This document shows positions 25,416-42,227 of a DNA stretch of 64,000 nt, piece by piece. Source of the stretch: Qipengyuania sp. SS22 (GTDB lineage: Bacteria > Pseudomonadota > Alphaproteobacteria > Sphingomonadales > Sphingomonadaceae); contig NZ_CP107048.1 of assembly GCF_025736935.1 (NCBI RefSeq), positions 1,997,501 to 2,061,500 of the forward strand, given 5' to 3'. Position 1 is the first letter of the stretch; each line of letters begins with the position of its first letter. Position numbers and translations under genes: made by a program. A model generated the notes under the pieces. That model saw only the letters and a program-made list of their open reading frames with translations, was not told the DNA's origin and made no database searches.

Positions 25416-25467
25416 GGGCTCCGCTTAGCTTCGGATGCTAAACAATGATTTACAACCGCGGCTCGGT

Positions 25468-38053: not shown

Positions 38054-38707
38054 TCAAGCGGCCGAGACGATCTCGGTCGCCTGCGCGCACGGGCCGCCGT
38101 CTTCGCCTTCGCTGCCGCCAATCTGCGTCAGCGCGATCACCCCGCCGACCACCAGCAGCACGAAGATCGTGGTCACCGTGCCGAGATATTCGTCGATCAC
38201 GCGCTTGATCGGCGCGCCGAAGACGCGGAACAGGATGCCCACGGTCATGAAGATCAGCGCGCGGGCGAACAGGCTGGCGAGCACGAAGGTGACGAGGTTC
38301 ATGCCGATGAAACCGGCGGTGATCGTCAGCAGCTTGAACGGTACGGGCGTGGCACCCGCAATCAGGATCGCTTCAAAATCATATTCGCGCAGGTGGCAGG
38401 CGGCGATGGGGAAGGCCTCGGTCAGGCCCAGCGCGCCGATCAGCCACACACCTACAGTATCATAGAGCCCCCAGCCGATCGCATAGCCCAGCAACGCGCC
38501 CGCCACCGATGCCAGCGTGCAAACCACCGCGAATTTGACCGCCTTTTTGGGTTCGGCGAGACACATCAACCCGAGCAGCGGGTGCGGCGGGATCGGGAAG
38601 AAGCTCGACTCGACAAAGCTGAACAGCGCCAGCCACCCCACCGCATGCGGATGCGAGGCCTTGGCCATGGTCCAGTCGTACAGCCCGCGCAGCGGTTTCA
38701 TGATCAT
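38054..38707 (-). CDS. YqaA/DedA-type inner-membrane protein (VTT domain)
   Basis: The 217-residue membrane protein has about five transmembrane helices and the YqaA/VTT signature: FVESSFFPIPPHPLLGLMCLAEP followed by GALLGYAIGWGLYDTVG and ILIAGATPVPFKLLTITAGFIGM. VTT-domain proteins such as DedA are thought to move lipids or support membrane potential. ATG 38707 (MIMKPLRGLYDW) or the next in-frame ATG 38701 is the start; there is no decisive ribosome binding site. It ends 12 bases from the convergent osmC gene. Confidence 0.85.
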   Translation of the reverse strand: MIMKPLRGLYDWTMAKASHPHAVGWLALFSFVESSFFPIPPHPLLGLMCLAEPKKAVKFAVVCTLASVAGALLGYAIGWGLYDTVGVWLIGALGLTEAFPIAACHLREYDFEAILIAGATPVPFKLLTITAGFIGMNLVTFVLASLFARALIFMTVGILFRVFGAPIKRVIDEYLGTVTTIFVLLVVGGVIALTQIGGSEGEDGGPCAQATEIVSAA

Positions 38708-38806
38708 GGTATTGGGGAAATCCCTGGGATCGCGTGATGCGACGGGATTAGGCGAGGCCCGCAGCGTAGGCAAGCGCGACCGAATAACCTATTTGGTTCT
38801 TTTCTA

Positions 38807-38835
38807 TTGACATCGTCACGCTGTTTGGGTACATA
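38807..38835 (+). promoter_or_regulatory. Sigma-70-type promoter in front of the GTA remnant
   Basis: A perfect -35 box TTGACA at 38807-38812 is followed, after a 17-base spacer, by TACATA at 38830-38835, a passable -10 box. Transcription would begin about 38842 and pass through the hairpin at 38882-38905 before reaching the small-terminase gene at 38945. This is a prediction from consensus only. Confidence 0.5.
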
Positions 38836-38881
38836 AAAGGAACATCGCGATAGTGTGATTCACCGGCCAGCGGGTCGGAAC

Positions 38882-38905
38882 GGGGCGGCCTTCTACGGGC
38901 CGCCC
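38882..38905 (+). terminator. GC-rich hairpin between the promoter and the small-terminase gene
   Basis: GGGCGGCC pairs with GGCCGCCC around TTCTACG-type loop bases, and the downstream sequence TTCGTCGTTTT is moderately T-rich. It may end transcription from the promoter at 38807-38835, in which case a short transcript of about 70 to 80 nucleotides would result, or it may be a 5' leader structure of the terminase gene. Confidence 0.5.
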
Positions 38906-38944
38906 TTCGTCGTTTTGCGCTACGCACACAATCGGAGAACCATC

Positions 38945-39454
38945 ATGCCGAAGGCGGCCAAGGCCCGCACGAAGCGGACCAAGATCGCCGACGTCTACCG
39001 GCGCGGCGAAAAGGACAATCTCGACCGCCACTGGCGCGGCTTCTTTCTCGACCATCTGGCCGAGACGTCCAACGTGACCGCCGCTGCGCATTTTGCCGGG
39101 GTGAATCCCGGCCGGGCCTATAAGGTGCGCCGCGAGGATGCTGCATTCGCGCGCAAATGGTATGCCGCGCTGCTCGAAGGATATGAGCATCTCGAACTCG
39201 AAACGCTGCGCCGCCTGCGCGAAGGCGTGCCCGCCGACGGACCCAAGTTCGACATCGCCAATGCGCTGCGGCTGCTGACGCTGCATCGCGAGACGGTGGC
39301 GCGCGAACGGACGCAGCTCGAAAATTCGGACGAGGCCAGCGTGCTTGCCTCGCTCAACGCCAAACTCGAAGCCATGCGCCAGAACGAAATGGCGCTGCAG
39401 GCGGCGCTGGCCGAGGACGAGACCGATCCGGTCGATCCCGCCGATGCTGGGTGA
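38945..39454 (+). CDS. Gene transfer agent small terminase-type protein (RcGTA g1-like)
   Basis: The 169-residue protein has the layout of the GTA/phage small terminase: a basic N-terminus, a helix-turn-helix region (NVTAAAHFAGVNPGRAYKVRREDAAFARKWY), the conserved GYEHLELETLRRLREG segment, and a C-terminal helical part. In Rhodobacter capsulatus g1 is the small terminase that brings DNA to the large terminase. The reading frame is intact from ATG 38945 and the stop overlaps the start of the large terminase fragment by 11 bases. No other structural GTA gene follows intact, so the gene cannot package DNA on its own. Confidence 0.8.
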   Translation: MPKAAKARTKRTKIADVYRRGEKDNLDRHWRGFFLDHLAETSNVTAAAHFAGVNPGRAYKVRREDAAFARKWYAALLEGYEHLELETLRRLREGVPADGPKFDIANALRLLTLHRETVARERTQLENSDEASVLASLNAKLEAMRQNEMALQAALAEDETDPVDPADAG

Positions 39455-39900
39455 CGGCTTCCTCGACTGGCTGCGCAAACAGAACGACTGCACCAAGACG
39501 GGGCTGATCGCGCAGCTGGAAGAGCGCGAACGCGCGCTGATCCGGCATGACTGGCCGCTCTGGCGGCGCGAGGCACAGTCCCCGCCGCGCGGCGCCTGGA
39601 ATTGCTGGGTGATCTGCGCGGGGCGCGGCTTCGGCAAGACCCGCACCGGAGCCGAATGGGTGCGCGAATCCGCCATCCTCGACCCCGATGCGCGGATCGC
39701 GCTGGTTGCCGCGTCGCTTGGTGAAGCGCGCAGCGTGATGGTCGAAGGTGAAAGCGGGGTGCTGGCGATCTGCCCGCCGAACTACCGGCCGTTCTACGAA
39801 CCCTCGCTCAAGCGGCTGACCTGGCCCAATGGGGCAATGGCCTTTCTCTACTCGGCCGCCGAGCCCGAAAGCTTGCGCGGCCCGCAGCACAGCCACGCCT
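39444..39900 (+). pseudogene. Large terminase (GTA g2-like), N-terminal remnant
   Basis: The reading frame from ATG 39444 codes for the first 150 or so residues of a GTA/phage large terminase: WPLWRREAQSPPRGAWNCWVICAGRGFGKTRTGAEW includes the Walker A motif GRGFGKT, followed by the LAAS-like stretch IALVAASLGEARSVMVEGESG and the region up to SLRGPQHSHA that normally leads into WADELAKW. At 39898-39905 the homology stops and the frame changes to that of the DUF2793 fragment. The ATPase domain is incomplete and the nuclease domain is gone, so the gene is dead. Confidence 0.85.
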
Positions 39901-40299
39901 GCGGGCCAGGCGCAGAAAGAACTTTTCGTCAACGAGGCGTTTTCGCGGATCGATGCGCTGCTCCATCCGGTCGTCGAGGGTGCGGCCAGCGCGCCACCAG
40001 CCTCCCCCGCCGCAGGCGAGAGCTGGGTAGTCGCCGATCCGGCCAGTGGCGAATGGGCGGGCCATGCGCATGAGCTGGCCAACTGGGACGGCGCACAATG
40101 GACCTTTTGCGCCCCTGCCGACGGCACGCAAGTCTTCGACCGCACGCTCGGTGCACGCCGGGTCTTTTTTGGATCATGGCAGTGTCCGACGCGGCCCACC
40201 CAGCCCATGGGCGGGACCGTTATAGACAACGAGGCACGCGCAGCGGTCACCGCGATCATCGACATGCTTGCAACACTCGGGATTATTCCGCCAGAATGA
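39901..40299 (+). pseudogene. DUF2793 (GTA tail-end gene), C-terminal remnant
   Basis: From 39901 a different reading frame gives AGQAQKELFVNEAFSRIDALLHPVVEG, the start of the DUF2793 domain, and runs to the normal C-terminus (VIDNEARAAVTAIIDMLATLGIIPPE) and TGA at 40299. DUF2793 genes usually lie at the downstream end of the gene transfer agent cluster in sphingomonads and rhodobacters. The first roughly 20 residues are missing and no start codon belongs to it. Together with the terminase fragment it marks a deletion that removed everything between the first and last genes of the cluster. Confidence 0.82.
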
Positions 40300-40417
40300 C
40301 GGGAACCGCCGGGCCTCACTGTCGTTCGGCTGTCACGGAAGGGGTCCACTCGACGGAACTCATTCTCATCGTGCGGGAAAAGCGGTATTATTACCACAGT
40401 TCCCGGCGATTGTTTGC

Positions 40418-40446
40418 TTGCCACCTTTGGGGTAGAAAGTTAGATA
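40418..40446 (+). promoter_or_regulatory. Sigma-70-type promoter of the OmpA-family gene
   Basis: TTGCCA (40418-40423) and TAGATA (40441-40446) lie 17 bases apart, five of six and four of six matches to the consensus. A start site near 40453 would give a leader of about 37 bases ending in AAAAAGGGGAAACTATA before ATG 40490. The rest of the 190-base gap from the GTA scar holds no gene. Confidence 0.6.
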
Positions 40447-40489
40447 TGTTCCACTCGGTGGCTCCAATTCGCAAAAAGGGGAAACTATA

Positions 40490-41602
40490 ATGCGGAAATT
40501 CGTCATAGGAATGGCGATGGCCTCTACGGCCCTTGCATCGCCTGCCCTGGCAAAAGACGACAGCTGGTATATCGGTGCCGAATTCGGCTCGATGCTTGTC
40601 GAAGATGCCGATTTCGACATCAATGATACGGCCGAAGCGCACGAAGTCAGCCATGACTTCGGCTTCGACGGCGGTGGCTACGTTGGCTACGACTTCGGCG
40701 GTTTCCGTCTGGAAGCCGAAGTCAGCTATCGCCAAGCCGACATCGATGGTATCACGGTCGGTGCGCCTGGCCTGACCTACGGTCCCGGCTCGGTTGCTCC
40801 AGCAGGCTTTTACGATGTTGGCGGTGACGTCAACGCGCTTTCGTTCATGCTCAATGGCTTGCTGGACTTCGGTCCGGAGGACAGCCTGCAGGGCTATGTC
40901 GGTGGCGGTGTTGGTGTTGCTCGTACCAGCTACGAAGTGACCCCCTACTCAAACTTCACATCGTCGATCGATGATTCGGACAGTGGTCTTGCTTGGCAGG
41001 TTCTGGCTGGCGTGCGCGCTCCGCTGACCGACAATGTCGATGTCGGCCTGCGCTATCGTTACTTCAACGCGGAAAGCGTGGAACTGGTCGATCTGGGCGG
41101 CAACTCGCTGGAAGATACCTTCACCAGCCACTCGCTGATGGGTACGCTCGAATTCAACTTCGGTGAACCGGCTGCTCCGCCGCCGCCGCCGCCGCCGCCC
41201 CCGCCGCCGCCTCCCCCGCCGCCTCCGCCCCCGCCGCCGCCGGCGCCGGTCTGCGAGACGGGTCCGTACATTGTCTTCTTCAACTGGGACAAATCGGACA
41301 TTACTCCGGAAGCAGCGACGATCCTCGACAACGCGGTTTCGGCCTACGCCAACTGCGGCACCGCCGCAGTCATGCTGGCCGGTCACACCGACCGTTCGGG
41401 TTCGACGACCTACAATATGGGTCTCGCCGAGCGTCGTAACGCCTCGGTCCGTGGTTACCTGAGCTCGCGCGGTATTCCGGATACCCGGATTACCAGCGAA
41501 GCCTTCGGTGAATCGCAGCCGCGCGTTCCGACTGCAGACGGTGTTCGCGAACTGCAGAACCGTCGCGTCGAAATCACTTACGGTCCGGGTTCGGGCATGT
41601 AA
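40490..41602 (+). CDS. OmpA-family outer-membrane protein with a 22-proline linker
   Basis: The 370-residue protein has a signal peptide (ending ASPALA), an N-terminal eight-strand barrel (about residues 25-225), a proline-only linker of 22 consecutive residues followed by Ala-Pro, and a C-terminal OmpA domain (about 255-370) with the peptidoglycan-binding signature NMGLAERRNASVRGYLSSRG and VMLAGHTDRSG. The domain tethers the outer membrane to the cell wall. Synonymous codons favour GGT, GGC and CGT, as in highly expressed genes. It has its own promoter and terminator and is thus monocistronic. Translation of the linker probably needs EF-P. Confidence 0.9.
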   Translation: MRKFVIGMAMASTALASPALAKDDSWYIGAEFGSMLVEDADFDINDTAEAHEVSHDFGFDGGGYVGYDFGGFRLEAEVSYRQADIDGITVGAPGLTYGPGSVAPAGFYDVGGDVNALSFMLNGLLDFGPEDSLQGYVGGGVGVARTSYEVTPYSNFTSSIDDSDSGLAWQVLAGVRAPLTDNVDVGLRYRYFNAESVELVDLGGNSLEDTFTSHSLMGTLEFNFGEPAAPPPPPPPPPPPPPPPPPPPPPPAPVCETGPYIVFFNWDKSDITPEAATILDNAVSAYANCGTAAVMLAGHTDRSGSTTYNMGLAERRNASVRGYLSSRGIPDTRITSEAFGESQPRVPTADGVRELQNRRVEITYGPGSGM

Positions 41603-41627
41603 GCGAGGCGACACGCCAAAAAACATG

Positions 41628-41657
41628 AAAGGGGCCGGAGCGATCCGGCCCCTTTTT
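41628..41657 (+). terminator. Rho-independent terminator after the OmpA-family gene
   Basis: GGGGCCGG (41631-41638) pairs with CCGGCCCC (41645-41652) around AGCGAT, and TTTTT follows directly. A clear, strong intrinsic terminator 28 bases after the stop codon. Confidence 0.88.
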
Positions 41658-41699
41658 CGTTGGCTAGAGAAGATCGCTGTTCAATTCGAAAGGATCGTC

Positions 41700-42227
41700 A
41701 TGTCATCCCGTCTTCTGTTGCCCTCGCTCGCCGCCCTGCTCATTGCAGGTTGCACTACGGTCGACGACCTGCCGAGCAACCGCGTTGGCGAAACAACACT
41801 GTATTTTGCCAACGGGCTGCCCGCGGGCACCGTCCAATTGTTGAGCAACGGCCAGACCGTTTCAGTTGCGATCGCCGCAGTCGGTATGTCGCAGGGCGAG
41901 CATGGGTTCCACCTGCATACCACAGGTGCGTGTACCGCCCCCGACTTTACCAGCGCCGGCGGTCACCTCAACCCGGGCATGGCCACGCATGGCGCGATGT
42001 CGCCCGGCGGGAAGCATCTGGGCGACATGCCAAACCTGACCATTGGCGCCAACCGCACCGGCACGGCCGAGGTCGCCCTGGACGGCGATGCCCGCGATGT
42101 GATCGATGATATCTTCGACGCCGATGGTACGGCCGTCGTCGTTCACGCAGGCGCCGACGATTACCGCACCGATCCCGCCGGCGACGCCGGCGCCCGGATT
42201 GCCTGCGGAGTGTTGAAGCCGGTCTAG
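41700..42227 (+). CDS. sodC: Copper/zinc superoxide dismutase-like lipoprotein
   Basis: The 175-residue product has a lipoprotein signal (MSSRLLLPSLAALLIAGC) and the SOD Cu/Zn fold, with copper/zinc ligands in GFHLHTTGAC, GGHLNPGMATHG and VVVHAGADDY, and the zinc Asp in KHLGDMPNLT. Two cysteines for the intramolecular disulfide are in TGAC and ARIACGV. Such enzymes destroy superoxide in the periplasm or at the outer membrane. The start ATG 41700 directly precedes the signal sequence. Its stop overlaps the convergent MFS gene by four bases. Confidence 0.88.
   Translation: MSSRLLLPSLAALLIAGCTTVDDLPSNRVGETTLYFANGLPAGTVQLLSNGQTVSVAIAAVGMSQGEHGFHLHTTGACTAPDFTSAGGHLNPGMATHGAMSPGGKHLGDMPNLTIGANRTGTAEVALDGDARDVIDDIFDADGTAVVVHAGADDYRTDPAGDAGARIACGVLKPV

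Follow-up and report, generated by a model that had tools for sequence, protein, structure and literature searches.

The locus at 38945-40299 of the window (the whole 64,000-nucleotide stretch of Qipengyuania sp. SS22 DNA analyzed here) is the remnant of a gene transfer agent (GTA) cluster, a set of genes for virus-like particles that transfer DNA, and not a working cluster, and its joint recurs at the same place across genera, in loci whose closest kin sometimes carry the full cluster. We tentatively favor the reading, to which we give somewhat less than an even chance, that one old GTA-deletion ("cheater") allele has survived alongside the intact cluster and is kept and passed on by homologous recombination.

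A GTA cluster remnant in the window

The locus begins with an intact GTA-type small terminase gene, terS (38945-39454, forward strand), already recognized as intact in the preliminary description and matching PHROG_4044, terminase small subunit, with an E value of 2.8e-10. It is followed on the same strand by codons 1-151 of terL (39444-39899), which encode the ATPase N-terminus and are numbered here as in the terL query used in the genome search. This stub starts at the ATG at 39444, is intact-like through codon 151, ends at 39899, and matched Pfam Terminase_6N at E 5e-10 over profile positions 2-99 of 215. It contains GRGFGKT, which we take to be the Walker A motif, and lacks the C-terminal domain and the WCDE motif, presumably Walker B. 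The DUF2793 gene (39901-40299, forward strand; PF10983, E 7e-24) is without its native start and enters at 39901 with codon 1 of AGQAQKE, in the +1 frame relative to terL; the jump of frame after ~150 terL residues, previously noticed by reading the letters, was thus confirmed. Junction alignment placed the joint in a 2-nt ambiguous zone (39899-39900, forward strand), which reads CT in the window and lies between CACGC (to 39898) and GCGGGCCAG (from 39901). The locus is flanked on the left by a VTT-domain gene (38054-38773, reverse strand; PF09335, E 1.1e-7, slightly below the cut-off) and on the right by a 370-aa ORF with a proline run (40490-41602, forward strand) that, assigned by eye from its sequence, may encode an OmpA-like outer-membrane protein.

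We compared the window with the intact cluster of Qipengyuania citrea H150 (G015, locus L068; G044 is Q. flava DSM 16421), in which both flanks are collinear with those of the window. Identity was 94.2% to the left of the joint and 93.1% to its right, and in 40-nt windows of DUF2793 near the joint it was 80-92%; the 12,690 G015 bases between the two sides are missing from the window. The missing bases encode the rest of terL, portal, DUF6127, prohead protease and capsid; a tail completion protein, tail tube, tail chaperone and tail sheath/DUF2460; and the baseplate hub, an Rcc01698-type protein and the start of DUF2793, the model for which begins at residue 30 of 152 in the intact G015 protein. 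The window terL stub is 98.7% identical in amino acids to intact G015 terL, with dN of 0.000 and dS of 0.23 over the last 130 codons. Both ends of the RcGTA-type cluster, the terS-terL pair and DUF2793, were kept in the window, and the same ends bound the full block in G015. The window locus is therefore a clean 12.7-kb internal deletion relative to Q. citrea, as proposed earlier, when a single deletion was held to have removed the structural block and left both ends. The DUF2793 product is termed a tail fiber protein in the available portion of PMC10883770.

The window genome is a single contig of 2,680,032 bases with one terL match and one DUF2793. Genome-wide profile searches found no Phage_portal match either, and with these three results no second, complete cluster was found, the search for which had been suggested before. 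The structural block between the cluster ends is missing, portal by the genome-wide search and capsid and tail genes by alignment at the locus. The strain is predicted to make no particles with host DNA. An Rfam search over 38500-41800 returned only two weak matches, far under the gathering scores.

The same joint recurs across the family

Among 60 genomes of the genus, one per species, a terL fragment was detected in 50 and DUF2793 above the cut-off in 52. The two lay 27-32 nt apart in 14 of the 60, of which 12 have the spacing of the window and two (G043 and G061) are 2 nt shorter and in frame. Fifteen of 80 named-record loci were also fused, including loci from Novosphingobium, Tsuneonella, Erythrobacter longus, Blastomonas aquatica and metagenome-derived genomes. 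A family draw of 199 genomes confirmed at least 10 more outside the genus among the matches listed, a lower bound in which one is the Blastomonas genome again. Altogether, 38 distinct loci carry the joint, with identical spacing in 35, 2 nt shorter spacing in two and 1 nt longer spacing in one; this count excludes L341 (G148), a fused locus found later. A terS match was present in 37 of the 38, and the remaining locus has only 270 nt upstream; terS appears to be frame-broken in L199 and L255. The preliminary description had treated the collapse as a matter of this one cluster: the deletion is real, but it is not private, since the same joint occurs across genera with intact sister species.

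We also searched a database of 5.8 billion proteins for short terL proteins (length limit 83-264 aa), which yielded 964 stub relatives. Among the best 120 of the 964, 74, the window's own included, fit the same-register pattern directly after codon 151, 12 read on into WCDE or WADE as intact partials, 26 were classed as "other" and 8 had no motif. On reading by eye, ~23 of the "other" proteins and 2 of those with no motif proved to have the same register with other residues, and P0006, also one of the 8, is intact. The same register thus occurs in about 99 of the best 120 (74 by pattern and ~25 by eye), in a database that overlaps the genome sets (P0107 has a contig of the same length as L189) and is not wholly independent of them. 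P0004, P0008, P0011 and P0104 represent other deletions.

In other families of the order, open terL frames were nearly all full length among the matches listed, as judged from the matches themselves, and the joint appears to be restricted to this family. A similar regular expression detected no fusion in 80 IMG/VR loci, and 64 of them contained the intact motif, as expected for contigs chosen for viral genes. A phage or plasmid carrying the joint was considered and rejected, since one phage record matched 117 nt of terL only and otherwise there was no match. No title on recurrent exact GTA deletion was found among the matches listed in a literature search on GTAs in mainly open-access papers.

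Sequence at the break sites

The preliminary description attributed the deletion to recombination over a shared TGCGGG. This explanation was not supported, because intact relatives read TGGTGCGACGAG, not TGCGGG, after codon 151. The flush homology between the two break sites was 0 nt in 25 of 26 intact loci. The codon before DUF2793 in intact relatives is, for example, GTT or TTC, and in loci with GTT a crossover placed one base further on would have TG in common; a fair statement of the homology is therefore 0-2 nt. In the 26 intact loci the in-register identity of the two break sites was below average, and the sites were no more alike than in other registers. Seven-base direct repeats, on average 7.6 per locus, lie nearby unused. 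Short-homology recombination was rejected on the basis of the absent flush homology and these unused repeats. A conserved DNA site or hairpin at the breaks was rejected as well, because no extra synonymous constraint and no unusual folding signal were detected. Tests of synonymous constraint, site similarity and folding revealed no matching recognition sites at the two ends of the block, and none of the genes identified in the G015 block encodes a recombinase.

Codon 151 has T as its third base in 22, C in 13, A in 2 and G in 1 of the 38 fused rows, and C in 69, G in 15, A in 9 and T in 1 of 94 intact rows, three of which are misaligned. This base usually derives from the DUF2793 side and sometimes from terL, and the 2-nt zone therefore follows either parent. 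The residues before the joint are HSHA in 32 of the 38 fused loci (otherwise HSHG, HGHA, HHIA, HGYA or FSHG), and those after it are AGQ in 25 of 38 (otherwise PGQ, AAQ, VGQ, LGQ, LGK, TGQ or SAR). HSH at codons 148-150 was not enriched in the fused rows (34 of 38 versus 76 of 94 intact, p 0.31). Arginine at DUF2793 codon 6 was found in 5 well-aligned intact rows and in none of the fused rows, which possibly reflects a mild sequence preference. An intein-like insertion at codon 151 was not seen in the intact rows, 90 of 93 of which continue with WCDE or WADE; the other three are L089 (another deletion), L205 (a contig end) and L208.

Fused loci are scattered among intact relatives

In an rpoB tree built from 56 genomes, 11 changes were needed to account for the 12 fused ones, and 325 of 500 label shuffles gave a number as low; G043 and G061, which had no rpoB match, are outside this tree, and its class labels other than "fused" are rough (G004 and G075 have terL and are labeled as without it). 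On a terL-fragment tree of 132 loci, the 38 fused loci needed 34 changes, 23 of them forced by starred branches, and 381 of 500 shuffles were as low; both trees were quick searches with one support measure. Fused loci are thus scattered like random labels on both trees. On the terL tree, the fused stub of G020 lies beside intact G005, that of G054 beside G067 and G069, that of Tsuneonella flava (L237) beside T. suprasediminis (L230), L221 beside L236, and L191 beside L185, and fused loci neighbor each other in three pairs (L099-L100, L257-L258 and L217-L255).

In the sister pairs G000/G015 (G000 being the window genome) and G020/G005, the sequences on either side remain 93-96% identical as far as the joint. 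In six fused loci with an intact neighbor no more than 0.05 away upstream, only 6 of 126 sites differed in the last 21 nt before the joint (three in L191, two in L237, one in L061 and none in the rest). The first 21 nt after the joint showed 1-2 differences in five of six fused loci compared and 5 in G048; G020/G005 differ at 0 of 21 positions on the left and 1 of 21 on the right, and G054/G067 at 0 and 2. Lineage-specific letters therefore run almost to the joint. The close fused-intact pairs contained no consistent donor tract near it, and the differences in L191 and L237 could each represent a short donor tract. When pairwise distances were computed over all rows, misaligned ones included, fused loci were more alike within ~30 nt of the joint. 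With misaligned rows dropped, the distance to the consensus on the left was not significant (of 2000 shuffles, 129 were as low over the first 6 nt and 428 over 21 nt), and the right-hand comparison is unfair because the intact rows are mostly of one genus. L099, L100 and L216 were dropped from register-dependent windows, and L171 (intact, a false close pair), L238 (the same genome as L257) and L092 (G053, with a frame-broken terL) from window counts and dN/dS.

The dN/dS of the terL stub was 0.00-0.08 in four fused-intact pairs with dS up to 0.23. It was 0.05-0.12 in three intact-intact pairs and 0.13-0.34 in three distant pairs, and it reached 0.14, 0.21 and 0.40 in the three pairs of fused neighbors and 0.10 in a further fused pair, G042-G048. 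DUF2793 is cut short in L063 (G021), L193 and L216. These results indicate that the fused loci are fresh or refreshed and that some are decaying. In G053 (L092), an otherwise full-length cluster, the terL frame is broken near codon 47-50, and some intact-looking clusters may likewise be dead.

Possible coexistence of the two forms and odd loci

Among 102 truncated proteins, four matched an intact terL of the data set with an identity of 95% or more. P0003 (Erythrobacter sp. HI00D59) is 100% identical to L265 and L266 (130 aa), P0118 is 100% identical to L328 (104 aa), and P0007, which has the register of the joint, is 99% identical to the terL of G075. The fourth is the window's own stub, which is 100% identical over 130 aa to that of L261, a piece of Q. 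citrea DNA that is 94% identical at this locus; protein identity consequently does not prove one species. P0003 keeps the register, and its terL letters, read by eye from the protein, run ~6-8 nt past the joint, which would be a trace of conversion by an intact allele. G075 (L093) has a different deletion, from the portal gene to past DUF2793.

The contig of L205, a metagenome-assembled genome, ends exactly at CATGC. In G215, contig C28 ends at CATGC (base 25418) and contig C48, which carries DUF2793, begins at base 1 with TTGCCGGCCAGG, exactly at TTGCCGG; the two halves of the joint are thus present and unjoined, assembly having been halted by something at this point, and the rest of terL was not found in this genome. 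Contig ends at the joint would be expected where the assembly graph forks between two coexisting forms, or alternatively where an insert at the joint was left unassembled.

In L208 (1936-2320), terL is left at the position of the joint, within 1 nt, and the hub gene g13 is entered at a CRAxF motif, and G176 leaves terL 4 nt further on for another partner. L345 (G152) joins terL residue 138 to DUF2793 residue 39, and L346 (G200) joins residue 107 to residue 47; these are ordinary deletions between the same two genes. Other deletions were found in the same clusters in G049, G052, G057, G060, G070 and G075, and the mapped break points are scattered. G001, G063 and G072 have a DUF2793 with its native start and no terL, and therefore represent other deletions as well. 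In G062, another genome of the genus, terL was matched four times over three contigs, and two of these matches are weak and lie next to each other.

Origin of the joint

Persistence of one old deletion allele is the reading that we prefer, because homologous recombination preserves identity of register over diverged sequences even where they share no DNA motif, an outcome hardly to be expected of an enzyme that reads DNA. It is supported by the constant register in 35 of 38 loci and in about 99 of the 120 top-ranking short terL proteins, by the lack of a DNA-level target in our tests together with the variable residues beside the joint, and by the scatter among intact relatives on both trees. 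Further hints are the stubs that match intact terL (P0003 and P0118), the contig ends at the joint, the terL letters past the joint in P0003, and the low dN/dS of the stub in fused-intact pairs. Carriers would make no particles and would still take up DNA, as cheaters in the sense of PMC10883770, and producer DNA would overwrite their terS, terL stub and DUF2793 repeatedly, by recombination with intact alleles, up to the boundary of heterology. The RcGTA particle holds about 4 kb according to the available portion of PMC9662315, and a particle of this size would not return a 13-kb block, so that the scar would remain between flanks of recent appearance. Shared ancestry and transformation are candidate routes by which the allele would enter a new species. 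Since close pairs contain no consistent donor tract, homogenization must reach almost to the joint. Several observations count against the allele: the breaks of L208 and G176 resemble a hot spot within terL, the distance of fused loci to the consensus just left of the joint is not significantly smaller, the absence of arginine at DUF2793 codon 6 from fused rows possibly hints at a mild sequence preference, and the G215 contig ends, without the rest of terL, have more than the fork as a reading. The reading also asks a great deal, in that the allele must have persisted throughout a family or moved from genus to genus.

Recurrent excision in place, in which both genes are cut by a recombinase or nuclease, terL behind codon 151 and DUF2793 ahead of AGQAQKE, and the ends are rejoined, many times independently and perhaps as a programmed retirement of the GTA, is a serious contender that we nevertheless consider doubtful. 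It accounts more simply than the allele reading for the clean sister pairs G000/G015 and G020/G005 and for the odd terL breaks of L208 and G176, which depart from terL at this very position or no more than 4 nt away and join other partners; the other mapped deletions have scattered break points. The joints also resolve as the terL CT or the DUF2793-side dinucleotide, as a 2-nt staggered exchange would produce. Against it, the target varies at wobble positions and at some residues, to which the enzyme would have to be indifferent, the two sites share neither a motif nor in-register similarity, and the genes identified in the G015 block include no recombinase. The more specific proposal, that a dedicated, sequence-tolerant sphingomonad excision activity retires the GTA at terL codon 151 and the conserved start of DUF2793, as an on-to-off switch reused across the family, appears unlikely to us.

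It is improbable that the fused locus is a functional gene kept by selection, such as a terminase decoy with a restarted DUF2793. Its terS, terL stub and DUF2793 are mostly open, and 22 of 38 loci gain at the joint an ATG that lies in frame, two codons ahead of DUF2793; however, this ATG is missing in the other 16, the window included, the terL frame continues for anywhere from 2 to 192 codons, and DUF2793 is truncated in L063 (G021), L193 and L216. The raised terL dN/dS of the three fused-fused pairs speaks against it too, although G042-G048 stays low. Selection for a new DUF2793 start was rejected because of the 16 loci without such an ATG.

An artefact of assembly or databases, which the contigs of G215 and L205 ending exactly at the joint might suggest, is very improbable, given that the joint lies within the single-contig genomes G000, G014, G019 and G042 and in proteins of several sources (ncbi, ena, jgi and lgn). 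Many independent short-homology deletions coinciding by chance are scarcely credible: these clusters have indeed suffered other deletions (G049, G052, G057, G060, G070, G075, G152 and G200, as well as P0004, P0011 and P0104), but the joint shared by 38 loci excludes them as the sole cause, and in 25 of 26 intact loci the flush homology is 0 nt, with seven-base repeats left unused.

Relation to known systems

The sigK skin element is removed by programmed site-specific excision, with the recombinase carried on the element, sites in a shared repeat, and the gene restored. The GTA deletion resembles it in that a block of phage origin is lost at fixed positions within genes. It differs in that the block, as examined, showed neither a recombinase nor a repeat, and in that the reading frame is left broken. 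Trans-species polymorphism under balancing selection is best known from sexual organisms. The old deletion allele would be similar in that two alleles coexist through speciation, and unlike in that a bacterial deletion allele would be concerned.

Pseudogenized RcGTA-type clusters are read as "recently emerged cheater lineages" in the available portion of PMC10883770, where non-producing cheaters beside producers were already proposed. The clusters described there are alike in that a vertically inherited alphaproteobacterial GTA loses particle genes and the DUF2793 tail fiber and terminase end remain; unlike the pseudogenization and loss in many lineages reported in that portion, there is here one joint, in the same register across genera. 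A single recognizable loss allele, carried by 14 of 60 genus genomes (one per species) and found across the family, can be counted by PCR or read mapping. The persistence of an old deletion allele predicts an asymmetry, in which GTA-borne DNA would mend the flanks of the scar and not the missing block. If recurrent excision were true instead, a previously unrecognized excision activity would be acting on a domesticated prophage.

Conservation beside the locus

The leader and first codons of the OmpA-like gene (40300-40560 of the window) are conserved and had no Rfam match. A blastn search of the fetched genus loci gave 50 rows for this segment, with identities of 76-98% over 112-263 nt, the window itself excepted. 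DUF2793, which adjoins this conserved leader, had dS above 1 in several pairs.
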